A stretch of 64,000 nt of DNA, taken from contig JAUIJU010000013.1 in NCBI GenBank assembly GCA_030431095.1, positions 1 through 64,000 of the forward strand, given 5' to 3'. Of the stretch, positions 12,543 to 27,678 are shown in pieces (the first letter of the stretch is position 1; the number at the start of each line of letters is the position of its first letter). This DNA is from Gammaproteobacteria bacterium (GTDB lineage Bacteria; Pseudomonadota; Gammaproteobacteria; Xanthomonadales; SZUA-36). The notes under the pieces were generated by a model. That model was not told where the DNA came from. It saw nothing but the letters and a program-made list of their open reading frames with translations, and made no database searches. Made by a program: the position numbers and the translations under genes.

Positions 12543-13526
12543 TCAGTCGGCGAGCAGGGAACGGATCCAGTCCGCCAGCAGGGCCGTCTGTGCGCCGTCG
12601 CGATGCGCGTAGTTGGCGCCGGTGTAGCCCCACCAGTCCCAGCAGGCCAGCGGATTGACGGCCGACGCCACTGCCTGGGGGAAAGCGAGGACGATGCCGT
12701 TGGCATCCGCCCAGCGCAGGTATCCGGCCTGCTCCAGGAACGCGCGGTCCACGTTGCTCACCGATTGCAGGCAACCGTGCAACGCGACGTGCAGGCGGCA
12801 GCCTGATTCGGGGCAGGCGCCGGGCACGTAGAGGAAAGCCCGGGAGTCCATGCCGGCCCCGGCGGCGCCCGCCAGGTCGACTTCACGCCACGTCCCCTCG
12901 GCGTCTTCGTCAGACGGCGCCGCCAGTCCCGGGTACAGGGACCGCAGAATCTCTCCGGCCGCATCGTAGTCACAGGCGCCAAGCCAGGGGGACTCGGACA
13001 CGTCACAGGCACTGCCCGCTTCGAGCGTGGGAAACAGGTGCGCGGCGGGCACGTCGTCCACCCGGTTCAACCGTTCCGCCGGGACCAGGTCGGCGTAAAA
13101 CGCAGCCACGGCATCGGCCACCTTGGCCGGCACGGCCTCGTCCTGGGCCCCGCGAAACAACCAGACGCGGTCGTCGGACAGCAACGACGGGTCGGCCACC
13201 TGGGCCTCCGCGGCCAGCGCCCGGTATCGTTCCAGCATTCGTTCGACCGGCAGTGGGCCGTCTTCCTTACCCACGCACCGACCCAGCGCCAGGCCGAGAT
13301 TGGCCTCGGCGCAATCGAAAGGGATACCGGCAATGATCCCTGCGCCGGAAAACAGGTCGGCGTACGCCAGGTGGAGTTGTTGAGCCATGGCGCCGCCGGA
13401 AGAAATTCCCGAAACGGTCACCGCGTCGGCATCGATTGCAGGCAACCCGTCGTCCGATGCCTGGACGGCGAGGGCGAGCAGGACCCCCAGGCCGGCGGCC
13501 GCGATTCTGGTCTTAATGGTGTTCAC
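12543..13526 (-). CDS. phaZ: Secreted poly(3-hydroxybutyrate) depolymerase, type-II catalytic domain
   Basis: A 327-residue exported esterase. A signal peptide covers about residues 1-23. The catalytic order is lipase box first (GISSGG, Ser42), then Asp129 (FRGAQDEAVP), His163 (AAHLFPT), and the oxyanion His250 (VALHGCLQS) last, with CWDWWGY near the C terminus. That order is the circularly permuted type-II arrangement of extracellular PHB depolymerases. No substrate-binding domain or linker follows the catalytic domain, so it may act on amorphous PHB or soluble oligomers. The GTG start at 13526 has a strong GAGGAG site and overlaps the end of the upstream tetR gene by 14 bp, showing coupling to the regulator. 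It lies next to 3-hydroxybutyrate catabolic genes. Confidence 0.85.
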   Translation of the reverse strand: MNTIKTRIAAAGLGVLLALAVQASDDGLPAIDADAVTVSGISSGGAMAQQLHLAYADLFSGAGIIAGIPFDCAEANLGLALGRCVGKEDGPLPVERMLERYRALAAEAQVADPSLLSDDRVWLFRGAQDEAVPAKVADAVAAFYADLVPAERLNRVDDVPAAHLFPTLEAGSACDVSESPWLGACDYDAAGEILRSLYPGLAAPSDEDAEGTWREVDLAGAAGAGMDSRAFLYVPGACPESGCRLHVALHGCLQSVSNVDRAFLEQAGYLRWADANGIVLAFPQAVASAVNPLACWDWWGYTGANYAHRDGAQTALLADWIRSLLAD

Positions 13527-14166
13527 GATCGTTCTCCTCGTATTTCTGGCACAGCGCGCGAAATCCGGCGCTGATGAAAGGAACCAGGCGCTTGTGTACG
13601 GCCTCGAAATCGGAGGAGTGACACAATCCGCCCGACAGGCCGTCAATTCGCCGGGTGTCGGCGAAGGTCAGCGTCAGCGCACCGGACCAGAAGTGATAGC
13701 ACCAGTACAGGTCGGCCTCGTCACATCCCGGCAGGGCGCGCTTGAGCGCGTCCAGGAAGCGGTGCACCAGCGGATCGAAATGTTTCGACATGGCCCGCCC
13801 ACCCCAGTCGGGATTGTTGTTGACTTGGGCCAGCAGACCGAAATACGAGCGCCAGCTGGGATCCTCGCTCACCACCTTGTTCAGGAGGGTGTGGGTGAAG
13901 GCATCGACCACCTCCTCCACCGGCGCCGGATCATGGCGCTCCAGCACCGCGTCCAGGGCGTCGGAGCGCTCCCGGTTCAGGGCCTTGGCGCGACGACTGA
14001 GCAGTTCGTCGAACAGGCCCTGCTTGTTGCCGAAATGGTACTTCACCAGGGCCACGTCGACACCGGCTTCGTTGGTGATTTCCCTGAGCGATACCCCGTC
14101 GTAGCCGCGCTTGGCGAACAGCCGTTCGGCTTCTTCGAGGATTCGTTCTTTCTTGGGCTTGGGCAT
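13513..14166 (-). CDS. TetR-family transcriptional regulator of the PHB/3-hydroxybutyrate locus
   Basis: A 217-residue regulator. The N-terminal helix-turn-helix (about residues 7-52: RILEEAERLFAKRGYDGVSL through YHFGNKQGLFDELLSRR) is typical of TetR. The C-terminal ligand domain is about 160 residues and contains the PSWRSYFGLLAQ stretch seen in CerR/YbiH-like members. I chose the ATG at 14166 (MPKPKKERI), since the upstream extension to 14199 is atypical. The gene is divergent from a TonB-dependent receptor, and two palindromes of the form TTCAAC-N4-GTTGAA lie in the shared intergenic region. Its gene overlaps the depolymerase gene, so autoregulation would also control the depolymerase. The ligand is unknown; 3-hydroxybutyrate or its CoA ester is a guess. 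Confidence 0.88.
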   Translation of the reverse strand: MPKPKKERILEEAERLFAKRGYDGVSLREITNEAGVDVALVKYHFGNKQGLFDELLSRRAKALNRERSDALDAVLERHDPAPVEEVVDAFTHTLLNKVVSEDPSWRSYFGLLAQVNNNPDWGGRAMSKHFDPLVHRFLDALKRALPGCDEADLYWCYHFWSGALTLTFADTRRIDGLSGGLCHSSDFEAVHKRLVPFISAGFRALCQKYEENDREHH

Positions 14167-14222
14167 GGATTCTGGGTCCTTGCTCCGGGGGGGCCTCATT
14201 GAACACCGCTTTCGGAAACATT

Positions 14223-14238
14223 TTCAACTGGTGTTGAA
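14223..14238. promoter_or_regulatory. Palindromic operator site 1 (tetR-receptor intergenic region)
   Basis: TTCAACTGGTGTTGAA: 6-bp perfect inverted arms TTCAAC/GTTGAA around a 4-bp centre. It overlaps the proposed -35 box of the divergent receptor promoter. Its arms are the same as those of a second palindrome 54 bp away (centre to centre). It is the likely binding site of the adjacent TetR regulator. Confidence 0.7.
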
Positions 14239-14262
14239 ATTTTCGTAAAAAAAGCGAATACT
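14234..14262 (+). promoter_or_regulatory. Putative sigma-70 promoter of the TonB-dependent receptor gene
   Basis: TTGAAA (14234-14239), a 17-bp spacer, then AATACT (14257-14262). This gives a start point near 14269 and a ~55-nt leader before the ATG at 14325. The -35 box lies within palindrome 1, and palindrome 2 covers about +8 to +23, a layout suited to repression. Confidence 0.6.
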
Positions 14263-14276
14263 GCACGGGCTCACAC

Positions 14277-14292
14277 TTCAACAATTGTTGAA
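14277..14292. promoter_or_regulatory. Palindromic operator site 2, perfect 16-bp palindrome
   Basis: TTCAACAATTGTTGAA is a perfect 16-bp palindrome with the same arms as site 1. It lies 33 bp before the receptor start codon, just downstream of the proposed start point. Two matched sites about five helical turns apart suggest cooperative binding or looping by a TetR dimer pair. Confidence 0.75.
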
Positions 14293-14324
14293 TAACGACC
14301 ACAGATACCACTGGGGCTCAAGAC

Positions 14325-16568
14325 ATGAACAACACCCGTACGCTCAGTCAACGCGCGTGCCCGACACGTCGCACCATCGGATTCACCACCCTGGCCGTCG
14401 CCATTTCAGCGGCGCTGGGCCTGCCCCAGCTGTCGCTGGCGCAAAGCCCCGAGCAGGACCTCCTGCTGGAAGAAGTCGTGGTCACGGCCCAGCGCCGTGA
14501 ACAGACGCTGCAGGAAGTGCCCATGGCCATCAGCGCCTTCACGGGCGAACAGCTGCGTGACCTGCAGGCCGACAACCTCGATTCCATCCAGGGCGCGGTG
14601 CCCAACCTGAACCTGGTCCAGGGTCGCGGCTCCAACTCCAGTGTCAACGTCTTCATTCGCGGCGTCGGACAGCCGGACGCCCTGCAATCATTCGACCCCG
14701 CGGTCGGCATCTACCTGGACGATGTGTACATGTCCCGCATCCAGGGCGCGATGTTCAAGCTTTACGACATCGAGCGCATCGAGGTGCTGCGTGGCCCGCA
14801 GGGCACGCTGTACGGCAAGAACACCCCGGGTGGCGCCATCCGCCTGATCACCCGTACCCCGGGCGACGAGTTCGAGGCCGCGGCCAACGTCACCCTGGGT
14901 GACTACGCCCGCGCCCAGGCCAGCGCCTACGTGTCCGGCCCGGTCAGCGAGGACCTCTCACTGGGCCTGAGCGTGCTTCACGACCAGCGCGACGGATTCG
15001 TCACCGATCCCATCGACGGCCGTGAGTACAACGACGAATACACCACGGTCGCCCGCGTGAAGGGCGCCTGGCAGGCCAGCGACAACGTCAGGGTGGTGTT
15101 CTCCGCGGACTACACGAAGGAAGACGTGGCGCTGACCCTCGGACGCGCCGAGGCGCCGCTGATCAGCATCGACCTGGCGACCGGCGCCGCCGTGCCGCGC
15201 TTCATTCCGTCCACCGACGAGTACAACTTCGAGACCAGCACCGACATGGGTGACCTCGGCGGCCAGCGCTCGGACCACTGGGGCGGCAACGTGACCGTGG
15301 CCTGGGACATTAACGACGCACTCACGTTCAAGTCGATCTCGGCTTATCGCGACCTGACGTCCGACCTGTACATCGACATCGACGCCACGACCCTGCAGCT
15401 GGGCAACGTGTTCGTCGGCATCGACCAGGACCAGTTCAGCCAGGAGTTCCAGCTGCTGGGCGACAACGGGGGCAGCGTGACGTGGGTGGCCGGCGCGTAC
15501 TACCTGCGGGAGAACGTGCCGTCCCACCAGGAAGCCTACGCGGATGATTTCCTGCTGTTCGGCGGCTTCCCCATCAGCTTCCTGAGAACCATCGACGACG
15601 ATCTTCAGACCACCAGTTACGCCGCGTTCGGCCAGGTGGACTGGGCCTTCGCCGAAAACTGGAACCTCGGCCTGGGCATTCGCTACACCAAGGAAGAGAA
15701 GGACTACGCCCGAACCACCAGTACCTTCAGTGACCTCCTCGGCAACGCGGACCCCGCCTTCGCATTTTCCGATTCCGACAGCTGGGACGCCTGGACCCCC
15801 ACGCTGACGCTGGACTGGGCCGCCACCGACCACCTGAACTTTTATGGTCGCCTGGCCGAAGGCTTCAAGAGCGGGGGTTTCAACGGTCGCGCCAACAGCG
15901 CCCCCGATGTGTCGACGTTTGATCCGGAAACCGTCTGGACCGCGGAAATCGGCGCCAAGACCACCAGTTCGGACGGCCGCTTCCTGGCCAATGTCGCCGT
16001 GTTCCAGAGCAAGTACGAGGACTTCCAGGCCCGCGTTTCCGTGGGTGACGGAATCGATTTTCGCTTCCCGGTTCTCAACGCCGCGGAGCTGGACATCTCC
16101 GGCGCCGAGGTGGAACTGGCCTGGTTCCCCATCGACCCGCTGCAGCTGACCAGCCAGATCGGCTGGCTGGACAGCGAGTACGGCGCCGGGGGCTTCAGCG
16201 GTTCTGACGGCGTGCCCGACGAACCGGCCTTCTCCCCCGAGTGGACCGCGCGCTTCGGCGCCATCTGGACCGTGGACCTGTCCGGCGGCGCCGCGATCCG
16301 TATCGGCGCCGACGCCAACTACCGCGACGCCATGCAGTTGAGCGTGGAGAACTCGCCGGTGCTGACCGAAGGCGACTACTGGCTGGCCAACGGTTTTGTC
16401 AGCTGGGTCAGCGCCGACCAGCACTGGACCGTGACCGCGGGCATCAAGAACGCCACGGACGAAGTGTACCGGGTCGAAGGCCAGGACTTCCGCAGTGTGG
16501 GTAACATCCAGACCGCCTACTACGGCGACCCGCGCACCTGGACGGTGTCCCTGGACTACCGCTACTGA
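14325..16568 (+). CDS. TonB-dependent outer-membrane receptor, proposed PHB/3HB-oligomer uptake
   Basis: A 747-residue receptor. A long signal peptide (about residues 1-40, with RR before the hydrophobic core and cleavage near LSLAQ) is followed by the TonB box EEVVVTAQRR (49-58), a plug domain (VNVFIRGVGQPD, IEVLRGPQGTLYGKNTPGGAIRLI) and a ~600-residue beta-barrel ending in the aromatic terminal strand TVSLDYRY. Receptors of this class import ligands too large for porins. Its divergent position to the tetR-depolymerase operon and its place before 3HB genes suggest oligomers released by the depolymerase as ligand, rather than iron. A GC hairpin follows the gene. Confidence 0.88.
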   Translation: MNNTRTLSQRACPTRRTIGFTTLAVAISAALGLPQLSLAQSPEQDLLLEEVVVTAQRREQTLQEVPMAISAFTGEQLRDLQADNLDSIQGAVPNLNLVQGRGSNSSVNVFIRGVGQPDALQSFDPAVGIYLDDVYMSRIQGAMFKLYDIERIEVLRGPQGTLYGKNTPGGAIRLITRTPGDEFEAAANVTLGDYARAQASAYVSGPVSEDLSLGLSVLHDQRDGFVTDPIDGREYNDEYTTVARVKGAWQASDNVRVVFSADYTKEDVALTLGRAEAPLISIDLATGAAVPRFIPSTDEYNFETSTDMGDLGGQRSDHWGGNVTVAWDINDALTFKSISAYRDLTSDLYIDIDATTLQLGNVFVGIDQDQFSQEFQLLGDNGGSVTWVAGAYYLRENVPSHQEAYADDFLLFGGFPISFLRTIDDDLQTTSYAAFGQVDWAFAENWNLGLGIRYTKEEKDYARTTSTFSDLLGNADPAFAFSDSDSWDAWTPTLTLDWAATDHLNFYGRLAEGFKSGGFNGRANSAPDVSTFDPETVWTAEIGAKTTSSDGRFLANVAVFQSKYEDFQARVSVGDGIDFRFPVLNAAELDISGAEVELAWFPIDPLQLTSQIGWLDSEYGAGGFSGSDGVPDEPAFSPEWTARFGAIWTVDLSGGAAIRIGADANYRDAMQLSVENSPVLTEGDYWLANGFVSWVSADQHWTVTAGIKNATDEVYRVEGQDFRSVGNIQTAYYGDPRTWTVSLDYRY

Positions 16569-16575
16569 CCGGTTC

Positions 16576-16600
16576 CGGGGGCGGGCCCGGCCCGCCCCCG
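16576..16600. terminator. GC-rich hairpin after the receptor gene
   Basis: An 11-bp perfect stem (CGGGGGCGGGC with GCCCGCCCCCG) and a CCG loop, 7 bp after the stop codon. There is no T run behind it (ATCCCGTCCTTTCG), so it may be a weak terminator or an mRNA 3'-end stabiliser separating the receptor from the downstream catabolic genes. Confidence 0.5.
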
Positions 16601-16654
16601 ATCCCGTCCTTTCGTCCACGGGTCCCTGGGACCCGCCCCGCGTAGAATGCCCGG

Positions 16655-17944
16655 ATGAGCGTCCCGCAGACACCCCCACTGGATCACCCTGCACGACCCG
16701 CCGCCATCGATGGACGCGGCCTGGCCCTGTTCATGCTGGTGGTGGTCTATACCTTCAATTTCATCGACCGCCAGATCGTCGGCATCCTCGCCGTGCCGAT
16801 CAAGGCCGACCTGGGTCTCAGCGACGCGCAACTCGGCCTGATGGGCGGACTGGCCTTCGCCCTGTTCTACACCGGCCTGGGCATTCCCGTCGCCATGCTG
16901 GCCGACCGCCGCAGCCGCACGTGGATCATCACGGGCGCGCTGGCCGTGTGGAGCGCCATGACCGCCGCCTGCGGCCTGGCGCAGAATTTCTGGCAGCTGT
17001 TCCTGGCCCGCCTGGGCGTGGGCGTGGGTGAAGCCGGCGGGGTCACCCCGGCCTATTCCCTGCTCATGGACTACTACCCCCCGGGCGAACGGGCCCGGGC
17101 CGTCAGCCTGTACTCTTTCGGCATTCCCATCGGCAGCGCCCTTGGCATCGTGTTCGGGGGCGTTATCGCCAGCCTGGTGGATTGGCGTTTCGCCTTTTTT
17201 GCCGTCGGCGTCGCCGGCCTGGTGCTGGCGCCGGTGTTCCGCCTGCTGGTGAAGGAACCGCCTCGCGGGCACTACGATCAGGCCGCGACCACCCGGCCGC
17301 CGGGCCTGGGAAGCATCGCCGGCACCCTGGCCCGCAAGCCGAGTTTCTGGCTGCTCTCGGTGGGCGCCTCGTGCTCCTCCATGATGGGATACGGCCTGTT
17401 TTTCTGGATGCCTTCCTTCATCGTGCGCAGTCACGGACTCAGCTTACTGGACGCATCCCTGTTCTATGGCGCCATCCTCCTGGTCGGGGGCATGGCCGGC
17501 ATGTGGGCGGGCGGCTGGCTGGGTGACCGCCTCGGCCAGGTGCGCAAGACCCGCTACGTGACCATCCCGGCCATCGCCTTCCTGATTTCGGTCCCCACCT
17601 ATGTGCTGGGCGTTCTGACCCCGACGCTGGTGCTCGCGTTTTTCGTCATCATGGTGCCGGTGGCGCTGGGCCTGGTCTGGGTCGGACCGGTGATGTCCAC
17701 GGTCCAGCAACTGGTGCCGCCGAACATGCGCGCCACGGCCTCCGCGGTGTTCCTGTTCATCAATAACCTGCTGGGCATCGGCCTGGGCACCTGGGCCATC
17801 GGCGCCCTGTCCGACTTCCTGCAGGGCCAGTACGGCGATGACTCGTTGCGCTGGTCCATCGTCGCCGGTACCGGCTTTTACCTGTTGGCGGCCCTGCTGT
17901 TCCTGCTCGCCTCCCGCTGGCTGGAACGGGACTGGGAGGATTGA
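16655..17944 (+). CDS. MFS transporter (spinster-like), proposed 3-hydroxybutyrate/oligomer carrier
   Basis: A 429-residue inner-membrane carrier with 12 predicted helices. The N terminus shows FNFIDRQIVGILAVPIKADL, the pattern of spinster-like members of the major facilitator superfamily, with the loop motif MLADRRSRTWII between helices 2 and 3 and a symmetrical motif GDRLGQVRKTRYV in the second half. The substrate cannot be read from sequence. The gene begins 86 bp after the receptor and is followed after 1 bp by 3-hydroxybutyrate dehydrogenase, so it probably brings 3HB or short oligomers from the periplasm into the cell. A TAGAAT hexamer 6 bp upstream of the start is too close to be its own promoter. 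Confidence 0.85.
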   Translation: MSVPQTPPLDHPARPAAIDGRGLALFMLVVVYTFNFIDRQIVGILAVPIKADLGLSDAQLGLMGGLAFALFYTGLGIPVAMLADRRSRTWIITGALAVWSAMTAACGLAQNFWQLFLARLGVGVGEAGGVTPAYSLLMDYYPPGERARAVSLYSFGIPIGSALGIVFGGVIASLVDWRFAFFAVGVAGLVLAPVFRLLVKEPPRGHYDQAATTRPPGLGSIAGTLARKPSFWLLSVGASCSSMMGYGLFFWMPSFIVRSHGLSLLDASLFYGAILLVGGMAGMWAGGWLGDRLGQVRKTRYVTIPAIAFLISVPTYVLGVLTPTLVLAFFVIMVPVALGLVWVGPVMSTVQQLVPPNMRATASAVFLFINNLLGIGLGTWAIGALSDFLQGQYGDDSLRWSIVAGTGFYLLAALLFLLASRWLERDWED

Positions 17945-17945
17945 C

Positions 17946-18743
17946 ATGAACACGGATCGTTTTCTGGCGGGGCGCCACGCCCTGGTCACGGGATCCACCT
18001 CGGGCATCGGTCTGGGCATTGCCCGCGCCCTGGCCCGCCGCGGTTGCAGCCTGACGCTGAACGGTTTCGGTGACGCGGACGCAATCGAGACCCACCGGCA
18101 GGAACTCGAACAGCTGGCCGACGCCCCGGTGGCGCACCACCCGGCCGACATGAGCGTCCCCGACGACATCGAGGCCATGATGCACGAGTCGGCGGAAGCC
18201 CGCGGTCAGGTGGACATCCTGGTGAACAATGCCGGCATCCAGCACGTTTCGCCGGTGGCGTCCTTTCCACCGGAACGCTGGGACGCCATCATTGCCATCA
18301 ACCTCTCTTCCGCGTTTCACACGACGCGGCTGGCCTTGCCTTCCATGGTCACTGCCGGCTGGGGGCGCATCGTCAATGTCGCTTCGGCCCATGCGTTGCG
18401 GGCTTCGCCCTTCAAGGCGGCCTACGTGGCGGCCAAGCACGGCATTGCCGGCCTGACCAAGACCGTCGCGCTGGAAACGGCGGAGCACGGGATCACCGTC
18501 AACGCAATCGCCCCCGGCTACGTGGAAACCCCCCTGGTGACCGGCCAGGTCGAGGATACCGCCAGGGCACGCGGCATCAGCGAGGAAGCCGTGTTGCGCG
18601 ACGTGATGCTGCTGGCGCAACCCACACGACGCCTGGTGGCCATCGACGAGGTCGCCGAGTTGGCCGTCTACCTGTGCACGCCGGCCAGTGCGTCCATCAC
18701 CGGCACGGTCCTGCCGGTGGACGGCGGCTGGACCGCCAAGTAG
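17946..18743 (+). CDS. bdhA: D-3-hydroxybutyrate dehydrogenase
   Basis: A 265-residue short-chain dehydrogenase that oxidises D-3-hydroxybutyrate to acetoacetate with NAD+. It shows the dinucleotide motif TGSTSGIGLGIA, NNAGIQHV, and the catalytic Ser147, Tyr160 and Lys164 (AAYVAAKHG). The substrate residues known from the Pseudomonas enzymes (Gln94, His144, Lys152, Gln196, Trp257) are all present here at a constant +5 offset: Gln99, His149, Lys157, Gln201 and Trp262. That makes the substrate call strong. The start codon is 1 bp after the MFS stop, and the next gene begins 8 bp downstream, so it sits in the middle of an operon. Confidence 0.93.
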   Translation: MNTDRFLAGRHALVTGSTSGIGLGIARALARRGCSLTLNGFGDADAIETHRQELEQLADAPVAHHPADMSVPDDIEAMMHESAEARGQVDILVNNAGIQHVSPVASFPPERWDAIIAINLSSAFHTTRLALPSMVTAGWGRIVNVASAHALRASPFKAAYVAAKHGIAGLTKTVALETAEHGITVNAIAPGYVETPLVTGQVEDTARARGISEEAVLRDVMLLAQPTRRLVAIDEVAELAVYLCTPASASITGTVLPVDGGWTAK

Positions 18744-18751
18744 GCGAGCCC

Positions 18752-20329
18752 GTGCCCGGCCCCTGGTTTGATGCCCCGGCCCCGCTGCTGCCGGAATTGC
18801 TGGCGCTGAACGGACGCTGGATGGGCGCCAGGCCCGCGGTGATCTGCGACGGCGAAGCCCTTTCCTGGTCCGACTTTCATGCCCGTGTGTGCCAGCTGGC
18901 CAACGGGCTGCGCGCGGGCGGGCTGGCCACCGGTGACCGGGTGGCCGTGCTGATGGACAACAGCCCGGAAATGTTCATCACGCTGTTCGGCATCATCGCC
19001 GCCGGCGGTGTCACCGTGCCGCTGAACGTGTTCGTGACCGACACCGGGCTGGCCGCCATGATCGAAGACGCCGACGCCCGCGCCGTATTCACCTCCGGCG
19101 ACCACGCAAAACGCCTGGCACCGTTCCGGGAATCCCTGGAGCGGGTCCGGTCGGATGCCTGGATTCAGCACGGGCAACCGGCAGATGGATTCACCGGGTT
19201 CGAATCCTGGCTGGCATGCCAGGACAGCAGCGATCCCGACGTGCCGCTCGCCGACGGCGACGCGTGCAACATCATCTACTCGTCGGGTACCACGGGGGCG
19301 CCCAAGGGCATCGTGCATACCCATCGCCGACGCCTGGACTGGTTCTACGACCTGGCGCTGGCGTTGCGCTACGACCGCGCGACAGTCAACCTGTGCTCGA
19401 TTGGCCTGTTCTCCAACATTTCCTGGGCCGGCATGGGCTGCGCCCTGCTGACCGGCGGTACCGTGGTCATCATGCGCGGTTTCGATGCCGGCGACTGGTT
19501 GTCACTGGTGGCGCGTCACGGCGTCACCCATTCAGCCATGGTGCCGGTGCAGTTCCAGCGCATCCTGGAGCACCCCGACTTCGATCGGACCGACTGCTCG
19601 AGCATCAAGAGCCTGATGTGCTGCGGCTCGCCGCTCCAGGCCTCCCTGAAACAGCGGATCATGTCACGGCTCGCGCCGGCGCTGATCGAACTCTACGGGC
19701 TGACCGAGGGGATCGTCACCACACTGGAGCCGGAAGACGCCCACGGCCGCCTCGCCAGCGTCGGCAAGCCCGTCATGGGGACCGACCTGAAAATTCTCGA
19801 TGACGACGACCGCCCCTGTCCCCCCGGTCAGGCCGGCGAGATCGTCGGGCGCGGGCGCATCCTGATGTCGGGCTATCACGGTCGCGAAGACGCCAACCGG
19901 GATGCGACCTGGATAGACGAGGTCGGGCGGCGCTGGTTGCGCACCGGCGACATCGGCGTGCTCGACGCCGCCGGATTCCTGACGCTGGTCGACCGCAAGA
20001 AGGACCTGATCATATCCGGCGGCATGAACCTTTACCCGGCGGATATCGAGGCCGTGGTGCTCGAGCATCCCCAGGTCGATGAAACCGCGGTGATTGCCAT
20101 CGACAGCGATCGCTGGGGCGAATCCCCCTTCGCCGTCTATGTCGGCGAGGCCGGTCCCGCCGAATTGCTGGACTGGGTCAACCAGCGGGTCGGGCGTCAC
20201 CAGCGCCTGGCAGGCGCCACGGCCCTGGATGAACTGCCGCGCAATCCCAATGGCAAAATACTCAAACGGGAATTGCGTGAACGCTTCCGGGACTGGCTGT
20301 CCCGCCCACCTGCCGAGGACCCGGATTGA
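18752..20329 (+). CDS. Acyl-CoA synthetase (AMP-forming), likely activating a 3HB-derived acid
   Basis: A 525-residue adenylate-forming ligase. The AMP-binding core is visible as IIYSSGTTGAPKGIVHTH, then LIELYGLTEG, and the hinge region TGDIGVLDAAGFLTLVDRKKDLIISGG. Near the C terminus, LPRNPNGKILKRELRE carries the catalytic Lys. These enzymes activate a carboxylic acid to its CoA thioester through an acyl-adenylate. In this operon acetoacetate or 3-hydroxybutyrate is the likely substrate, but the sequence resembles general medium/long-chain acyl-CoA ligases, so this is inferred from context. The GTG start at 18752 is 8 bp after bdhA. Its stop shares one base with the next start codon. Confidence 0.85.
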   Translation: MPGPWFDAPAPLLPELLALNGRWMGARPAVICDGEALSWSDFHARVCQLANGLRAGGLATGDRVAVLMDNSPEMFITLFGIIAAGGVTVPLNVFVTDTGLAAMIEDADARAVFTSGDHAKRLAPFRESLERVRSDAWIQHGQPADGFTGFESWLACQDSSDPDVPLADGDACNIIYSSGTTGAPKGIVHTHRRRLDWFYDLALALRYDRATVNLCSIGLFSNISWAGMGCALLTGGTVVIMRGFDAGDWLSLVARHGVTHSAMVPVQFQRILEHPDFDRTDCSSIKSLMCCGSPLQASLKQRIMSRLAPALIELYGLTEGIVTTLEPEDAHGRLASVGKPVMGTDLKILDDDDRPCPPGQAGEIVGRGRILMSGYHGREDANRDATWIDEVGRRWLRTGDIGVLDAAGFLTLVDRKKDLIISGGMNLYPADIEAVVLEHPQVDETAVIAIDSDRWGESPFAVYVGEAGPAELLDWVNQRVGRHQRLAGATALDELPRNPNGKILKRELRERFRDWLSRPPAEDPD

Positions 20330-21225
20330 TGAACCATACCGAGCACCGCTACACCAGCTTCGATGGCCTGTCCCTCTACTATCGCGTTTACGGTTCGGGC
20401 GACCACGTGGTGCTGTGCCTTCCCGGGCTGACCCGCAACTGCAAGGACTTCGAAAACCTGGCCGGTCACCTGGCACAACGCTACCGGGTGATCACGCCGG
20501 ACCTGCGCGGGCGTGGCGAGTCGGACAACGATCCCAACTGGAAGCAATACATCCCTCCCACCTACGTACGTGACGCCTGGACCTTGCTGGACCGGATACG
20601 GGTGCCGCATTGCACCGTGATCGGAACCTCCCTCGGCGGATTGATGGCGATGATCATGGCCGAGCAGAACCCGGACCGGCTGCAAGGCCTGGTGCTCAAC
20701 GACATTGGTCCCGAGGTGTCGCCCGACGCCCTGGCGCGCATCGCGGAGTACGTGGGCGCCACGCCGCCACAACCCGACTGGAACGGCGCTGCGGACAAGG
20801 CGGAAGCGAATTACGCATTGGCCTACCCCGAGGCGGACCGGGAATTCTGGATGGCGCAAGCACGGGCTTCTTGGCGAGAGCGGAACGACGGGCAGGTAGA
20901 GCCGGCATACGATCCGGCCATCGGCGACGCTGTGCGACATGCGCTCAAGTCCGTCAAGATCATCGGCTGGCTGCGCAGGCTGGGACTACGCCGCATCAAG
21001 GGCATCAACCTCGATCCCTGGGACAATTTCCGAAAGGTCTCCATGCCCTGCCTGGTATTGCGCGGCGATTTGTCCGACGTGATTTCACCGGACACGGTGG
21101 CGCGCATGCGTGCGCTCAAACCAGACCTGGAAGTGGTGGACGTACCGGGTGTCGGACACGCACCGACGCTGGCCGAGCCCGCCGCCATCGCGGCCATCGA
21201 CGACTTTCTCGCTCGCCTGGACTGA
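20329..21225 (+). CDS. Alpha/beta hydrolase, possible 3HB-oligomer hydrolase
   Basis: A 298-residue hydrolase without signal peptide, so cytoplasmic. The nucleophile elbow is GTSLGG (Ser101); the acid is probably Asp250 (RGDLSDVIS) and the histidine His277 (GVGHAPT). HVVLCLPGLTRNCKDF is the oxyanion-loop region. The ATG shares its A with the stop codon of the ligase gene, so translation is coupled. In a locus with an extracellular PHB depolymerase and a 3HB dehydrogenase, cleavage of imported 3HB dimers or oligomers is the natural role, but the family is broad and other esters are possible. Confidence 0.82.
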   Translation: MNHTEHRYTSFDGLSLYYRVYGSGDHVVLCLPGLTRNCKDFENLAGHLAQRYRVITPDLRGRGESDNDPNWKQYIPPTYVRDAWTLLDRIRVPHCTVIGTSLGGLMAMIMAEQNPDRLQGLVLNDIGPEVSPDALARIAEYVGATPPQPDWNGAADKAEANYALAYPEADREFWMAQARASWRERNDGQVEPAYDPAIGDAVRHALKSVKIIGWLRRLGLRRIKGINLDPWDNFRKVSMPCLVLRGDLSDVISPDTVARMRALKPDLEVVDVPGVGHAPTLAEPAAIAAIDDFLARLD

Positions 21226-22000: not shown

Positions 22001-24391
22001 TTACTCCCCGTAGGGAATCCAGATGTTCTTGATCTCAACGGCGTGGCGGTAGAACGTCTCGCCACCCCCCTGGTCCGCGTCGAACCAGTCGTGGAATCGG
22101 CCATGGCTCACCCAGGTGCGCTTCATGGTGTCAGCGGCCGCTTCTTCGACGAGCCGACTGCCTTCGGCGTCGCCCCAGTACCAGGTCGCCTCGGGACCGT
22201 AGTGGCCCGCCAGGTGCGGCAGCAGGGACGCCTGGTGACCGGTCACGATGTTCAGGGCGCCGGCCGGCAGGTCGGAGGTCTCCAGCACCTGGTAGAAGTC
22301 CGTGGCCAACAGCGCGTAACGCAATGACGGCACCACCACCACGCGGTTGCCCATCGCCAGGGCTGGCATCACGGTAGAAATGAAACCGATGAAACCCGCC
22401 TCTTCCGGCGCCACGATGCCGATCACCCCGAGCGGCTCGCGCATGGCCAGGGTGACGTTGCGGTACGGGGTGGCGTGCACCTGGCCGTCGTACTTGTCGG
22501 CCATGGCGGCGGCGTCGAAGATGCGTCGGACACACAGCGCCAGTTCGGCCCGCGCGCCGTCCACGTCCTGGCCGGACAGCGCCGCGATGCGCCGAGTGAA
22601 ATCCTCGCCTCGGGCGGCCAGGTTCTCGGCAATGTAGAACAGGACCTGGGCCCGGTTGTGGGCCGTGGTCGTGGTCCAGGCCGGCGCCTTGACCGCCGCT
22701 TCCACGGCGTTGCGAATGTCCTTGCGGTTGCCGTCGGGGATTTCGCCCGCCCGGTGACCGGCCGCGTCGTACACGGCGATCGAGTAGCCGCCGTCGGGAC
22801 GGGTCTGCTTGCCGCCGACATACAACTTGGCGGTACGATCGATGGCCGGTGGCGCGTCCGCCTCCGGTTCGCAGGGTTCCGCCGGCACCTGTCCTGGATA
22901 CACGGGCGACCCGGAAAGCGCGGACGCCCAGTTTGGTTTCACGTACGCGTAGAGCCCCTCCCGGCCACCCTCGCGGCCAAACCCGGATTCGCGGTAGCCG
23001 CCAAAACCGGCCGCCGCGTCGAACTGGTTGGTGCAGTTGACCCAAACGGTGCCGGCCTTGAGCGCCGGCGCCACGTCCAGCGCCAGGTTGACGTTTTCTG
23101 TCCACACCGAGGCCGCCAGGCCGTAACGACTGTTGTTGGCCAGCTCCACGGCCTCAGCGGGCGTACGAAAGCTCATGCTCACCAGCACCGGCCCGAAAAT
23201 CTCTTCCTGGGCCAGCGTGGCGGCGGGCTGCACGTCGGTCAGGAGTGTGGGCGGGTAGAAACTGCCGTCTGCCGGCAGCTCGCACGCCGGCTGCCACACG
23301 GTGGCGCCTTCGGATTCTCCCAGCGCGACGAGTTCGCGAATGCGCTCGAGCTGCACCGGGTCCACGACGGCGCCCAGGTCAATGCTCTTGTCCATCGAGT
23401 CCCCCACCACCAGGCGCGCCATGCGTTCGCGCACTTTCTCCAGCAGCGACTCGGCCACGGACTCCTGCACCAGCAGGCGGGACCCGGCACAACAGACCTG
23501 CCCCTGGTTGAACCAGATGGCGTCAACCAGTCCCTCGACCACGCTGTCGAGGTCGGCGTCCTCGTAAACGATGAACGGCGACTTGCCGCCCAGCTCCAGG
23601 GTCAGTTTTTTGCCGGTACCCGCCGTGGCCTTGCGCAGGATTCGCCCGACCTCGGTGGAACCGGTAAAGGCGATCTTGTCCACATCCTCGTGTTCGACCA
23701 GCGCCTGGCCGGCCTTGTGATCGCCCAGCACCAGGTTGAACACCCCCGGCGGCAACCCGACGTCGTGGCAGACCTGGGCCAGCAACGACGCGGTGGTCGG
23801 GGTGAATTCCGCGGGCTTAAGCACCACCGTGTTGCCCATGGCCAGCGCGGGCGCCACCTTCCAGGCCGCCATCAGCAACGGAAAATTCCAGGGAATGATC
23901 TGGCCGGCGACACCCAGGGCCTGAAAACCCGCGAACTCGCGCGCCATCAGCTGCGCCCAGCCCGCGTGGTGATAAAAGTGGCGCGCCACCAGCGGTATGT
24001 CGATGTCGCGCGACTCACGGATGGGTTTGCCGTTGTCCAGGGATTCCAGCGTGGCGAACAGGCGGCTGTGCTTTTGCACGGCCCGCGCGATGGCGTAGAG
24101 ATAACGGGCACGTCCATGGCCGCCCAGCGCCGCCCAGTCCGCCTGCGCCGTGCGCGCCGCGCGCACGGCGCGATCGACGTCCTCGGCATCGCCGTCGGCG
24201 GCCAGCGCCAGCACCGTGCCGCGCGCGGGGCTGCGCGTTTCAAACCAGTTTCCACCGGCCGGCTCGCACCACTGGCCATCGATATAGTGGCGCAGGTGAC
24301 CGTCGCCCTGGGCCAGCCACGCCTCGGCGTGATCCGTGGCTTCCGGCGCCGGGCCGTATTCCAGCGTGTCGAAAATTTCCCGAATGCTCAT
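22001..24391 (-). CDS. ALDH16-type two-domain aldehyde dehydrogenase
   Basis: A 796-residue protein made of two aldehyde dehydrogenase units. The first (about residues 30-500) is complete: PWNFP (Asn169), FTGSTEVGR, Glu266 in LELGGK and the catalytic Cys300 in NQGQVCCAGSR. The second (about 525-796) has the NAD-binding-like part (GVIGIVAPEEAGF, VMPALAMGNRVVVVPS) but lacks the catalytic Cys region, so it is a structural pseudo-domain. This is the architecture of the ALDH16 family. It lies 10 bp downstream of deoxyribose-phosphate aldolase, so oxidation of the acetaldehyde formed by that enzyme is a likely role. Confidence 0.88.
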   Translation of the reverse strand: MSIREIFDTLEYGPAPEATDHAEAWLAQGDGHLRHYIDGQWCEPAGGNWFETRSPARGTVLALAADGDAEDVDRAVRAARTAQADWAALGGHGRARYLYAIARAVQKHSRLFATLESLDNGKPIRESRDIDIPLVARHFYHHAGWAQLMAREFAGFQALGVAGQIIPWNFPLLMAAWKVAPALAMGNTVVLKPAEFTPTTASLLAQVCHDVGLPPGVFNLVLGDHKAGQALVEHEDVDKIAFTGSTEVGRILRKATAGTGKKLTLELGGKSPFIVYEDADLDSVVEGLVDAIWFNQGQVCCAGSRLLVQESVAESLLEKVRERMARLVVGDSMDKSIDLGAVVDPVQLERIRELVALGESEGATVWQPACELPADGSFYPPTLLTDVQPAATLAQEEIFGPVLVSMSFRTPAEAVELANNSRYGLAASVWTENVNLALDVAPALKAGTVWVNCTNQFDAAAGFGGYRESGFGREGGREGLYAYVKPNWASALSGSPVYPGQVPAEPCEPEADAPPAIDRTAKLYVGGKQTRPDGGYSIAVYDAAGHRAGEIPDGNRKDIRNAVEAAVKAPAWTTTTAHNRAQVLFYIAENLAARGEDFTRRIAALSGQDVDGARAELALCVRRIFDAAAMADKYDGQVHATPYRNVTLAMREPLGVIGIVAPEEAGFIGFISTVMPALAMGNRVVVVPSLRYALLATDFYQVLETSDLPAGALNIVTGHQASLLPHLAGHYGPEATWYWGDAEGSRLVEEAAADTMKRTWVSHGRFHDWFDADQGGGETFYRHAVEIKNIWIPYGE

Positions 24392-24401
24392 GCCTGCCTC
24401 G

Positions 24402-25403
24402 TCAGCCCATGGGATGGCGCCAGGCGACGGAATAGCGCCCGGTCACGTGGTGCTCCAGTTGTCGTTCGATGTCGCCGAGAAGGCTGCTGGCGCCGAAACG
24501 GAACAGGTGCGGGTCCAGCCAGTCTCGACCCAGTTCCTCGCGCATCAGCGTGAGGTAAGCCAGGGCCTCCTTCGCCTTGCCGATACCGCCGGCAGGCTTG
24601 TAACCGACCTTGTAACCGGTGAGCCGATGGTAATCGCGGATGGCGCGCACCATGACCAGGCTGACCGGCAGCGTGGCGTTGACGCTTTCCTTCCCCGTAC
24701 TGGTCTTGATGAAGTCGGCGCCGGCCTGCATGCACACCCAGCTGGCGCGCGCCACGTTGGTCAACGTGGCCAGTTCACCGGTGGCGAGGATGGCCTTGAC
24801 GTGCGCCTCGCCACAGGCCTCGCGGTAGGCCCGCATTTCTTCGTACAGGCCCCGCCAGTCGCCGGTCAACACCTTGCCGCGCGAGATCACGATGTCGATC
24901 TCCGTGGCGCCGGCCTTGACCGACTCGCGGACCTGGGCGAGCTTCAGGGCCAGTGGAATCTGGCCGGCGGGAAAACCCGTGGACACGGCGGCGACCGGGA
25001 CCCCGCTGCCGTCGAGTTCACGCACCGCGGTACCGATCAGGTTGTGGTAAACGCAGACAGCACCTGTTTTCAGCGCCAGGTCGCCGACGCCGAGCGCTTC
25101 GAGCAGATCACGCCGGACTGGTCGCATGGCCTTCTGGCACAGGCGCCGGACCTTGCCCGGGGTGTCGTCACCGGCCAGCGTGGTCAGGTCGATACAGCTC
25201 ACGGCCTTGAGCAGCCAGGCGGCCTGGTGTTCCTTCTTGACCGAACGTCGGGCCGGCAACGATGCCGCGCGCCGCTCGACGGCGCTGCGGTTGACCCGCA
25301 GGTGGTCGAACAGCTCGGGCCGGAAGTCCATGCCCGGGTTGCGTTCCAGGCCGTGGTCTTCCGCGCCGGGTTGTTGCAGGGAAAATACGTTGGTCACCGC
25401 CAC
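24402..25403 (-). CDS. deoC: Deoxyribose-phosphate aldolase (long, eukaryote-like form)
   Basis: A ~333-residue class I aldolase that splits 2-deoxyribose-5-phosphate into acetaldehyde and glyceraldehyde-3-phosphate. The Schiff-base lysine lies in FIKTSTGKE (about residue 233), the proton-relay Asp in EIDIVI, and the second active-site Lys in YKPAGG. It has the N-terminal extension with AVERRAASLPARRSVKKE, as in the human enzyme (318 residues) rather than the 259-residue E. coli form. The start is uncertain: GTG at 25403 or 25397 fits a TATACT box at 25430-25435 on the minus strand; an ATG at 25331 is the conservative alternative. It is co-transcribed with the ALDH16 gene. Confidence 0.9.
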   Translation of the reverse strand: MAVTNVFSLQQPGAEDHGLERNPGMDFRPELFDHLRVNRSAVERRAASLPARRSVKKEHQAAWLLKAVSCIDLTTLAGDDTPGKVRRLCQKAMRPVRRDLLEALGVGDLALKTGAVCVYHNLIGTAVRELDGSGVPVAAVSTGFPAGQIPLALKLAQVRESVKAGATEIDIVISRGKVLTGDWRGLYEEMRAYREACGEAHVKAILATGELATLTNVARASWVCMQAGADFIKTSTGKESVNATLPVSLVMVRAIRDYHRLTGYKVGYKPAGGIGKAKEALAYLTLMREELGRDWLDPHLFRFGASSLLGDIERQLEHHVTGRYSVAWRHPMG

Positions 25404-25534
25404 GCACCGTCCATCGACTGGGGTCCGACAGTATATAACGCGACCGCCTGGGCCGCCGCGCCACCTGAGACGCACGCGGTCTGTGGCACAATGCCGTCAT
25501 CGGCGATTGCGGAATGTCTTTTCTAATTATTTAG

Positions 25535-25553: not shown

Positions 25554-25602
25554 ATATTGTTTATTCTGCATTTATTTGGATGTTAACGGTGTCGCTTTGA
25601 CC

Positions 25603-27678
25603 GTGGGCAATCGCGCCGGCACCCTTCAGGTCATCGGGTTCCTCGCCCTGGCGCCGTTGCAGGCTGGGCTTGCCCAGGCGCCGGCGGACGACGCCGTCGA
25701 ACTGGAGACCGTGATCGTTACCGCCACGCGGCGCACGGCGGAGCGACAGGACGTCGCAGGGGCCGTCGACCGAGTGAACGAACAGGAGATCGCTCGCCAG
25801 GCGCCCGACGTGGTGGCCGCGGCTTTGCGCGGGCTTCCCGGCGTATTCTTCCAGCAAACCACCCCCGGGCAGGGCATCCCCATCGTGCGCGGCCTGAAGG
25901 GCTCACAGGTGTTGCACCTGGTGGACGGCGTCCGCCTGAACAACGCCTTTTTCCGTGACGCACCCAATCAGTATCTCGGGCTGGTCGACGCCCTGACGGT
26001 TTCGAGGGTCGAAGTGCTGCGCGGCGCGGCCGGCGGCCTGTATGGCGCCGACGCCATGGGCGGCGTCGTGCAGATGTTCACCCGTGAGACGCAATTCGAC
26101 ACGGACCGGGCCACGTCGCGCTATCGCCTGTATGGCAGCTTCGACACCGTCGATCGGGGCCGGCTGGCCCGCGCCGAAGCCGCGACTGGCAACCGCCACG
26201 GCAGTCTTGCCGGCGGTTTCAGCTGGCAGGCGCTGGGGGACCGGCGCACCGGCAGCGGCGAGACACCGCACCCATCCGGTTTCCGTTCCCGGGCCGGCGA
26301 CCTGAAGCTCCTGCTCGGCGACCCGGCCAGCGGTGCGTGGATGGTGGCCGCCCAGTCACTGGAACAGCCGGCCACGCCACGCGTCGACGAACTGGTTCCC
26401 GGCTACGGGCAATCGGAAGCCTCATCGGCCATCTATCGATTCGAACCCAATCGCCGCGATCTGCTGCACGTCCGATACCGTCGGGGAGATGCGCGACGCG
26501 GCCTTGGCGCACTGGACGTGCACCTGGCCCGGCAGGTCATTACCGACGATCGCTCCACCCAGGACCTGGGCAGCCCGGTCATCAACACGGAACAGAACGA
26601 GAGCACGCTCGACGGCCTGGTGCTGCAGGTGATCCGTTCGTTGTCCCCGGACCTCACCCTGACCTGGGGGGCCGAACTGTACCGCGATGCCGTACGCAGC
26701 GCCCGCCAGGAACGCCTTGCCGAGGGTGGCGCCCCGGTGGACGTCCGTGGTCGTTTTCCCGACCGGTCGCGGCTCGACAGCGACGCGGTGTACCTGGATG
26801 CCGACTGGCGCATCGATGAGCGCTGGCGCCTCGACACCGCGCTGCGTTACAGCCGCTTCGATATCCGCCTGCCGGAAACCACCGCCAACCCGGCGGTGCG
26901 ACTGACCCCGGATGATCTGACCGGTGACCTGCGCCTGCACCTGGCGCTCTCACCGACCGCCGCGCTGGCGGCCAACCTCAGTCGCGGCTTCCGTCCGCCC
27001 AACGTATTCGACCTGGGCACGCTCGGCGCCCGGCCGGGCAACCGCTTCAACGTGGCCAATCCCGAACTGGGTCCGGAAACCGTCTGGAGCTACGACCTGG
27101 GCCTGAAACTGCGCGGCCGCCAGTGGACCCTGGAGGCCTATGCCTTTGCGCTGGACTACCGTGACCGCATCACCTCCGTGGCCACCGGTGACGTCACCCC
27201 CGACGGCCGCGTGGTGGTGCGCAGCGAAAACCTAACCCACGTTGTGATCAGCGGCATCGAACTGGGCGGAACGGCCAAGCTGGCGGCGGGCCTCGAGGCC
27301 AGCCTCGGCGTGAGTTACGCCCGTGGCGAGGAACGCCGCGATGCGTTGCCGGACACGCCGGCGGACCGCATTCCGCCGCTGAACGGTCGTCTCGGCCTGA
27401 CCTGGCACGCCACCGAACGGTGGCGCGTGGAACCCTGGCTGTTGTTCGCGGGCCGGCAGGACCGGCTCAGCCTGCGCGACCGGGAAGACCCGCGCATCGA
27501 TCCTGGCGGCACTGCCGGCTGGTGGACCGCCAACCTGGACCTTGCGTGGCGCGTGCGGCCCGGGCTGGACGTGGGGCTGCGCCTCCACAACCTGCTGGAC
27601 CAACCCTACCGCGAACATGGCTCCGGGCTGGACGCCGCCGGCTTCAATCTGGGGCTGTGGCTGGACGCTTCATTCTGA
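25603..27678 (+). CDS. TonB-dependent receptor, probably iron/heme type
   Basis: A ~691-residue outer-membrane receptor. The signal peptide (TLQVIGFLALAPLQAGLAQA) is followed by the TonB box ETVIVTATRR, a plug with IPIVRGLKGSQVLHLVDGVRL and VEVLRGAAGGLYGADAMGG, then a barrel containing SRGFRPPNVFDLGTL and NPELGPETVWSYDLG and ending in GLWLDASF. The FRPP...NP.L..E pattern is common to heme/hemoglobin and siderophore receptors. A Fur-box-like site upstream supports iron uptake. I chose the GTG at 25603 because it puts the signal peptide at the N terminus; a TTG at 25576 in frame would add nine residues. No exbB/exbD/tonB or ABC genes are next to it. Confidence 0.82.
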   Translation: MGNRAGTLQVIGFLALAPLQAGLAQAPADDAVELETVIVTATRRTAERQDVAGAVDRVNEQEIARQAPDVVAAALRGLPGVFFQQTTPGQGIPIVRGLKGSQVLHLVDGVRLNNAFFRDAPNQYLGLVDALTVSRVEVLRGAAGGLYGADAMGGVVQMFTRETQFDTDRATSRYRLYGSFDTVDRGRLARAEAATGNRHGSLAGGFSWQALGDRRTGSGETPHPSGFRSRAGDLKLLLGDPASGAWMVAAQSLEQPATPRVDELVPGYGQSEASSAIYRFEPNRRDLLHVRYRRGDARRGLGALDVHLARQVITDDRSTQDLGSPVINTEQNESTLDGLVLQVIRSLSPDLTLTWGAELYRDAVRSARQERLAEGGAPVDVRGRFPDRSRLDSDAVYLDADWRIDERWRLDTALRYSRFDIRLPETTANPAVRLTPDDLTGDLRLHLALSPTAALAANLSRGFRPPNVFDLGTLGARPGNRFNVANPELGPETVWSYDLGLKLRGRQWTLEAYAFALDYRDRITSVATGDVTPDGRVVVRSENLTHVVISGIELGGTAKLAAGLEASLGVSYARGEERRDALPDTPADRIPPLNGRLGLTWHATERWRVEPWLLFAGRQDRLSLRDREDPRIDPGGTAGWWTANLDLAWRVRPGLDVGLRLHNLLDQPYREHGSGLDAAGFNLGLWLDASF

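Follow-up and report, generated by a model that had tools for sequence, protein, structure and literature searches.

The closest described counterparts of the locus examined here are the CUT loci of Xanthomonas and Caulobacter, which are TonB-dependent carbohydrate utilization loci, and the SusC/SusD polysaccharide utilization loci (PULs) of Bacteroidota. Our subject is a group of seven genes at positions 12543-21225 of a 64,000-nucleotide stretch of gammaproteobacterial DNA (contig JAUIJU010000013.1 of assembly GCA_030431095.1; this whole stretch is called the window), which in all likelihood constitutes a utilization locus for poly(3-hydroxybutyrate) (PHB) and 3-hydroxybutyrate (3HB) with a TonB-dependent receptor of its own. 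A first-pass annotation, made from the letters of the DNA, had proposed such a locus; the gene linkage described below strongly supports this proposal, and the import of oligomers and their cleavage inside the cell, which it had also put forward, we infer. As in CUT loci, a receptor, an exported depolymerizing enzyme, a local repressor, an inner-membrane carrier and catabolic genes are found together; unlike in CUT loci, the polymer-cutting enzyme and the dehydrogenase serve a polyester and not a glycan. The division of labour among an exported enzyme, a TonB receptor and inner enzymes is also that of the Sus-type PULs, but there is neither a SusD nor any carbohydrate-active enzyme among the seven window proteins, and the locus is not a Sus-type PUL. 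In the wide sense of a TonB-dependent nutrient utilization locus, the expected grouping is found here, in that genes for a receptor, a polymer-degrading enzyme, a carrier and a regulator repeatedly occur together.

The enzymes of PHB degradation offer a second set of comparisons. The window depolymerase resembles the extracellular short-chain-length polyhydroxyalkanoate (PHA) depolymerases of type 2 (NF050059; 2d80) in its family score and catalytic residues, and differs from this class in having no linker or substrate-binding domain and in being linked to a receptor. The combination of a 3HB-oligomer hydrolase (PF10605) with a 3HB dehydrogenase serves the same metabolic step as the window genes and occurs near relatives of the window receptor, whereas the window locus has an unrelated alpha/beta hydrolase instead. 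For PHB degraders, passive entry of monomers and dimers is usually assumed; to our knowledge, the uptake of depolymerization products by Gram-negative PHB degraders is not settled. In the open-access literature, subscription papers and preprints lying outside its scope, no paper linking a TonB receptor with the uptake of PHB or 3HB oligomers was found, and the accessible portions of PMC12542648, PMC5979037, PMC10882806, PMC6874591 and PMC7029141 contain no such link. According to PMC6874591, DdvT was experimentally shown to be the TonB receptor for a lignin-derived biphenyl; its substrate, like that proposed for the window receptor, is a source of organic carbon and no sugar or siderophore, but it is aromatic rather than a polyester.

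Linkage of receptor and depolymerase across lineages

The depolymerase was searched for in 61 related genomes, 27 of which gave a match; the 23 strong matches were used, and four weak ones (E ~1e-6 to 1e-8) were left out of the linkage count. In 19 of these 23 genomes a receptor is found <=7 kb from the depolymerase (14/18 in the same family and 5/5 in other members of the order), against 3.2 expected by chance, an expectation based on an upper-bound receptor density per genome in genomes that are related, so that P is only a guide. Among the four unlinked genomes, G017 has no such receptor near its depolymerase, and the depolymerases of G009, G034 and G035 are on contigs of 6.2, 10.0 and 3.7 kb. 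Within the genus, and at the thresholds used, four genomes possess depolymerase, receptor and dehydrogenase, and two genomes that are 99-100% complete possess none of the three.

Two receptor types share the 14 linked loci of the family: seven have the window type (the window itself and six at 67-88% identity), and the other seven have a second type that is ~30-32% identical to the window's. A tree was built from 105 receptors; its window subclade comprises 8 rows, every one of them depolymerase-linked. Of the 47 rows in the wider clade, 16 are depolymerase-linked and a further 7 have a 3HB-oligomer hydrolase nearby, whereas neither enzyme is near any row of another clade, 38 rows in size. Except for L161, the window-type rows were found through receptor searches and not through depolymerases; the 20 second-type rows were picked through depolymerases, and their uniform label is no evidence.

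Class- and phylum-wide draws of depolymerases added 35 places in 33 genomes. Such a receptor is near nine of these places, eight belonging to family f150 and one to f12 (G801). In f150, it is another receptor clade that stands beside the depolymerase (8/9 loci); seven of the nine loci combine both with a dehydrogenase-like gene next to the depolymerase, and all three of these dehydrogenase-like genes that were tested pass TIGR01963. The receptor of G801 is 50% identical to the window's; 83 bp separate its match from that of the depolymerase, and a 3HB-oligomer hydrolase is found further on. Distant receptors may escape the receptor's hidden Markov model (HMM), and some of the stretches examined are short, so these linkage counts are lower bounds.

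Named genomes were scanned with the receptor alignment, and the best 80 of 155 loci were considered. A depolymerase is <=7 kb from the receptor in 12 of the 80, the matches being 55-117 bp apart in six of those 12; four of the 12 (L066, L067, L068, L079) are seemingly records of genomes already counted. Homologues of the 3HB-oligomer hydrolase occur on 11 of the 80 loci, and the five put to Pfam all pass (L073, L075, L085, L098, L105); the union of loci with either enzyme nearby is 19/80. In Marinicella pacifica (L073), genes for a 3HB-oligomer hydrolase (PF10605, 477 bits) and for a dehydrogenase above the TIGR01963 cut-off come after that of the receptor (51%), and this receptor arm is divergent from a TetR gene. 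It is because of the linkage within the order, the receptor-hydrolase-dehydrogenase succession of Marinicella and the dehydrogenase-bearing f150 loci that we read the window genes as a PHB/3HB utilization locus with its own receptor.

The seven genes and their products

The seven genes form two divergent arms, on the minus and plus strands, and all of them are where the first-pass annotation had placed them and in the arrangement that it had described:

12543..13526, minus strand: type-2 short-chain-length PHA depolymerase with a single catalytic domain (NF050059, 2d80, catalytic residues; GTG start at 13526 behind GAGGAG)
13513..14199, minus strand: TetR-family regulator with TetR_C_30, PsrA-like (TetR_C_30 E 2e-34; TetR_N)
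14223..14238, no strand: palindrome TTCAACTGGTGTTGAA, candidate TetR operator 1, overlapping the -35-like TTGAAA
14234..14262, plus strand: promoter-like site TTGAAA-17-AATACT between both palindromes, weak alone
14277..14292, no strand: palindrome TTCAACAATTGTTGAA, candidate TetR operator 2, a motif that some relatives also have between their TetR and receptor genes
14325..16568, plus strand: TonB-dependent receptor, proposed 3HB-oligomer importer (plug PF07715 and barrel PF00593)
16569..16654, plus strand: 86 bp between the receptor gene and the major facilitator superfamily (MFS) gene, including a G+C-rich hairpin
16655..17944, plus strand: MFS carrier, a candidate for the import of 3HB or short oligomers through the inner membrane (PF07690, MFS_1)
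17946..18743, plus strand: 3-hydroxybutyrate dehydrogenase (TIGR01963; 3v2h; substrate residues)
18740..20329, plus strand: AMP-forming acyl-coenzyme A (CoA) synthetase (PF00501, AMP-binding; PF13193)
20329..21225, plus strand: alpha/beta hydrolase, proposed intracellular 3HB-oligomer hydrolase (PF00561, Abhydrolase_1; no signal peptide by eye)

The depolymerase and TetR genes overlap by 14 bp, and on the plus arm a 1 bp gap between the MFS and dehydrogenase genes is followed by overlaps of 4 bp and 1 bp. The tight spacing initially described (overlaps or 1-8 bp) therefore applies to every junction but that of receptor and MFS, where the gap is 86 bp and the hairpin is not significant (z -1.67).

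The depolymerase passes its family model (NF050059, 302.6 bits against an NCBIfam cut-off of 280) and has a match to a PHB depolymerase of solved structure, 2d80/2d81 (E 1.2e-46); no Pfam family reaches E 0.001. The catalytic residues initially assigned, Ser42-Asp129-His163-His250 (counted from the GTG start at 13526), are correct, being invariant across 13 aligned homologues, and Ser42 aligns with the serine position that is Ala in 2d81. Many secreted PHB depolymerases have a linker and a substrate-binding domain. The window enzyme has neither, with 2 residues after the catalytic domain; a C-terminal extension is no requirement of the family model, as 58 of the 66 members examined are without one. 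Extensions of >=60 residues occur in 0/36 receptor-linked and 8/30 unlinked depolymerases (Fisher P 0.001, for rows that are not independent and include three unlinked ones on short contigs), and a lipobox pattern is found at 13/36 receptor-linked N-termini (12 after discounting L084) against 1/30 unlinked. The signal peptide of the window enzyme, read by eye, is of the plain type; therefore this depolymerase may be periplasmic or released.

The receptor has a plug and a barrel that both exceed the Pfam cut-offs, and it resembles the siderophore-receptor model TIGR01783 with a score of 165.9, below the cut-off of 223.5. The dehydrogenase passes TIGR01963 (358.3 bits against 307.05), and its nearest solved chain is 3v2h (E 4.6e-95). 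Relative to 1wmb it retains Gln94, His144, Lys152, Gln196 and Trp257, the five substrate residues that had been credited to it, together with Ser142, Tyr155 and Lys159, but Trp187 of the substrate pocket is replaced by Tyr. Judging by gene context, the MFS family of the window is tied to 3HB, because the dehydrogenase-MFS pair recurs in stretches that have no depolymerase, in G040 (with a second-type receptor) and in G017 (stretches L193 and L194); L193 combines dehydrogenase, MFS and receptor with no local depolymerase. Both control stretches around other dehydrogenases (L200, L201) contain a 3HB-oligomer hydrolase homologue, and one has a receptor ~7 kb off.

The acyl-CoA synthetase is above the cut-off of none of the 25 NCBIfam models listed. 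An acetoacetyl-CoA synthetase above its cut-off is encoded outside the locus in all six genomes of the genus, and because of this the route from external PHB through 3HB and acetoacetate to acetoacetyl-CoA is, as far as gene content can tell, complete without the local synthetase; a role of the latter as the required activator of acetoacetate was accordingly rejected. No PF01144 CoA transferase was found in the six genomes, and none has a match to PhaC_N, the mark of a PHB synthase, for which 1 of 14 control genomes (Caulobacter vibrioides) gave a match. The absence of PhaC_N matches from the genus led us to reject a role in intracellular storage of PHB. The nearest solved chain of the alpha/beta hydrolase is 3bwx (E 5.9e-55), and among the seven locus proteins there is no PF10605 match in Pfam, the rest of the source genome not having been searched for PF10605. 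PDB entry 3bwx is named solely as an alpha/beta hydrolase; the gene context in the window predicts a 3HB oligomer or similar ester as its substrate.

The best NCBIfam match of the TetR protein is PsrA, with 102.8 bits, below the cut-off of 300, so that it is not assigned to this family. The palindrome TTCAAC-N4-GTTGAA occurs twice between the TetR and receptor genes, again twice in the relative G004, and once each in G001, G005 and G051, the last from another family. In the named loci, the operator motif (<=2 mismatches) is enriched near receptor starts, with 13 occurrences in 49.6 kb as compared with 11 in 1,467 kb of other sequence; it is present in 8/29 loci whose receptor gene has a TetR homologue next to it and in 2/51 without one. 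The sole promoter-like site of the region sits between both palindromes, a position that fits repression, although the promoter scan is in itself no evidence (1 found, 1.1 expected). A genome-wide regulon under this palindrome was rejected, as the source genome has, besides the two sites of the locus, one further match, inside a TetR-like open reading frame by eye. This match, at G000:C90:63641-63656 (L035:9642), is ~7 kb from the acetoacetyl-CoA synthetase gene.

Proposed mechanism and competing explanations

We think it reasonably probable that this is a TetR-controlled locus for the use of extracellular PHB, or of 3HB oligomers released by others, and thus a polyester analogue of a TonB-dependent carbohydrate locus; that the receptor imports 3HB oligomers appears about equally probable from its gene neighbourhood. 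The presumably exported depolymerase would cut PHB or its oligomers; the TonB receptor would move the oligomers inward over the outer membrane, and the MFS carrier would move 3HB or short oligomers over the inner membrane. A presumably cytoplasmic alpha/beta hydrolase would complete their cleavage, and the dehydrogenase would yield acetoacetate, to be activated by the acetoacetyl-CoA synthetase from outside the locus; direct activation of 3HB or longer hydroxyacids may be the task of the local acyl-CoA synthetase. The TetR protein would repress both arms through the two palindromes at the putative receptor promoter until an acyl ligand arrives. The recurrence of the pairing across lineages suggests that pieces of polyester are taken up by some bacteria in much the same way as sugar chains are by others. 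If this is true, TonB uptake extends to a polyester, the means by which a degrader withholds products from its competitors is explained, and metagenomes gain a marker gene for PHB consumers; the uptake step is directly testable in named relatives (Marinicella, Luteimonas).

More tentatively, and with somewhat less than even confidence, we propose that in several gammaproteobacterial lineages a single-domain depolymerase, probably lipid-anchored in some, hands 3HB oligomers to a dedicated receptor in the manner of selfish polysaccharide uptake; that at least two receptor clades were recruited to this end; and that Luteimonas-type lineages, which keep the receptor, the oligomer hydrolase and the dehydrogenase without a type-2 depolymerase, live on the oligomers of others.

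A number of observations weigh against reading the window genes as a PHB/3HB locus with a dedicated receptor. The receptor sequence names no substrate, and its matches to receptors of solved structure are weak (E 2.3e-22 at best). The depolymerase is without such a receptor in 24 of the 33 genomes from the class and phylum (26/35 places, some on short contigs), including the f150 locus L175 and also L157 and L173, which nevertheless have a 3HB-oligomer hydrolase homologue. In G017, neither the stretch with the long-extension depolymerase nor that with the separate dehydrogenase-MFS pair contains such a receptor. Conversely, genomes G038, G049 and G058 of family f3 have a receptor (52-53% alike) and the dehydrogenase but no depolymerase match, nor is there a 3HB-oligomer hydrolase around their dehydrogenases (L190-L192). 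The dehydrogenase of Luteimonas padinae (L085) passes the NF009093 cut-off and fails TIGR01963 (282.9 against 307.05), and the operator motif is missing near the receptor in 21 of the 29 named loci with a TetR homologue. Most of the named receptor relatives (61/80) are near neither depolymerase nor 3HB-oligomer hydrolase. A type-2 depolymerase elsewhere in the genome was found in none of 30 receptor genomes without a local one (24 of the kind with neither enzyme and six with the 3HB-oligomer hydrolase, 17 of the 30 being alphaproteobacterial by title); no control genome gave a match in this search, and the same model recovers the source genome in other scans. The first-pass annotation had counted a receptor family mostly beside unrelated genes as evidence against its proposal, and this is what the broad family displays and the window subclade does not. 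From these proportions and the f3 genomes it follows that the receptor family as a whole is broader than PHB use, or that the use of PHB products needs no such neighbours.

A periplasmic depolymerase acting after the receptor, in a locus that scavenges oligomers released by other bacteria and makes no direct attack on PHB, is in our estimation unlikely, though it is the best placed of the alternatives. A single catalytic domain without a substrate-binding domain would suit such an enzyme, and in L085, L090, L096, L098 and L103 the receptor is kept together with 3HB-oligomer hydrolase and dehydrogenase homologues without any type-2 depolymerase match; but the lipobox, commoner in the receptor-linked depolymerases of other lineages, fits an outward-facing surface enzyme, and the plain signal peptide of the window enzyme speaks for neither place.

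Still less likely, the receptor family would import a different ester or a hydroxy or fatty acid, the 3HB genes being under the same regulator for a downstream or parallel purpose. TetR, MFS or hydrolase homologues are often beside the receptor in Alphaproteobacteria, there without a depolymerase; PsrA relatives sense fatty acids; and many f1 genomes have a variant locus in which both the TetR and the synthetase are different ones, to which L041, the one that was annotated, adds a KAS III-like enzyme and another hydrolase. Against this, linkage to the depolymerase or to the 3HB dehydrogenase is seen for two separate receptor clades and in several families, and no row of the window receptor subclade is unlinked. 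An ordinary neighbourhood, arising by chance in a TonB-rich genome (36 first-look receptor candidates) or around a receptor for iron or another micronutrient, as the sub-threshold similarity to TIGR01783 might hint, is highly improbable and its chance form was rejected, given the linkage far above expectation in the order, its recurrence with different receptor clades and with the 3HB-oligomer hydrolase, and the joint presence or absence of depolymerase, receptor and dehydrogenase within the genus.

Variant loci and neighbouring genes

The variant locus of many family genomes has the order of L041:5101-11098, which is similar in L044, L046, L047, L048, L049 and L050: depolymerase, receptor and MFS genes are accompanied in L041 by genes for another TetR, a FabG-like reductase and the KAS III-like enzyme (PRK06840), and its synthetase and alpha/beta hydrolase differ from those of the window. 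An enoyl-CoA hydratase is present in L043. The depolymerase frame of G017 (L038:7457-10456) has 677 residues behind its catalytic domain, and beside it is a gene with an IPTL-CTERM sorting motif (L038:10636-12012), in a stretch with neither receptor type.

In Luteimonas and relatives, the gene after that of the receptor encodes a hybrid sensor kinase of large size (L080:12314-15739, L085:12374-15718), in a cluster of 17 loci; this kinase, which in L080 has PAS, HATPase and receiver domains, resembles CbrA/CrbS. In Brevundimonas and other Caulobacterales (L106, L111, L118, L138 and others), genes that by eye are sucC-sucD-sucA-like adjoin the receptor gene and a TetR gene, in many cases together with an MFS gene. 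Plasmids were searched for named examples with little gain. A Sphingobium plasmid (L202) has a type-2 depolymerase beside genes that by eye are peptide/amide-hydrolase-like, and a long open reading frame that gave no match to the receptor HMM and may encode a TonB receptor of a different kind. Methylomagnum has a split copy of the type-2 depolymerase among transposases, and the receptor of a Phenylobacterium plasmid is ~32% alike.

In the window, a second, distant TonB-receptor-like gene is found at 25576-27678, 12 kb from the depolymerase. Genes for an aldehyde dehydrogenase and a DeoC-like aldolase adjoin the locus (22001-25475), and the same two genes adjoin the TetR-receptor pair of Marinicella pacifica (L073:5845-9177), with 55% and 67% identity.

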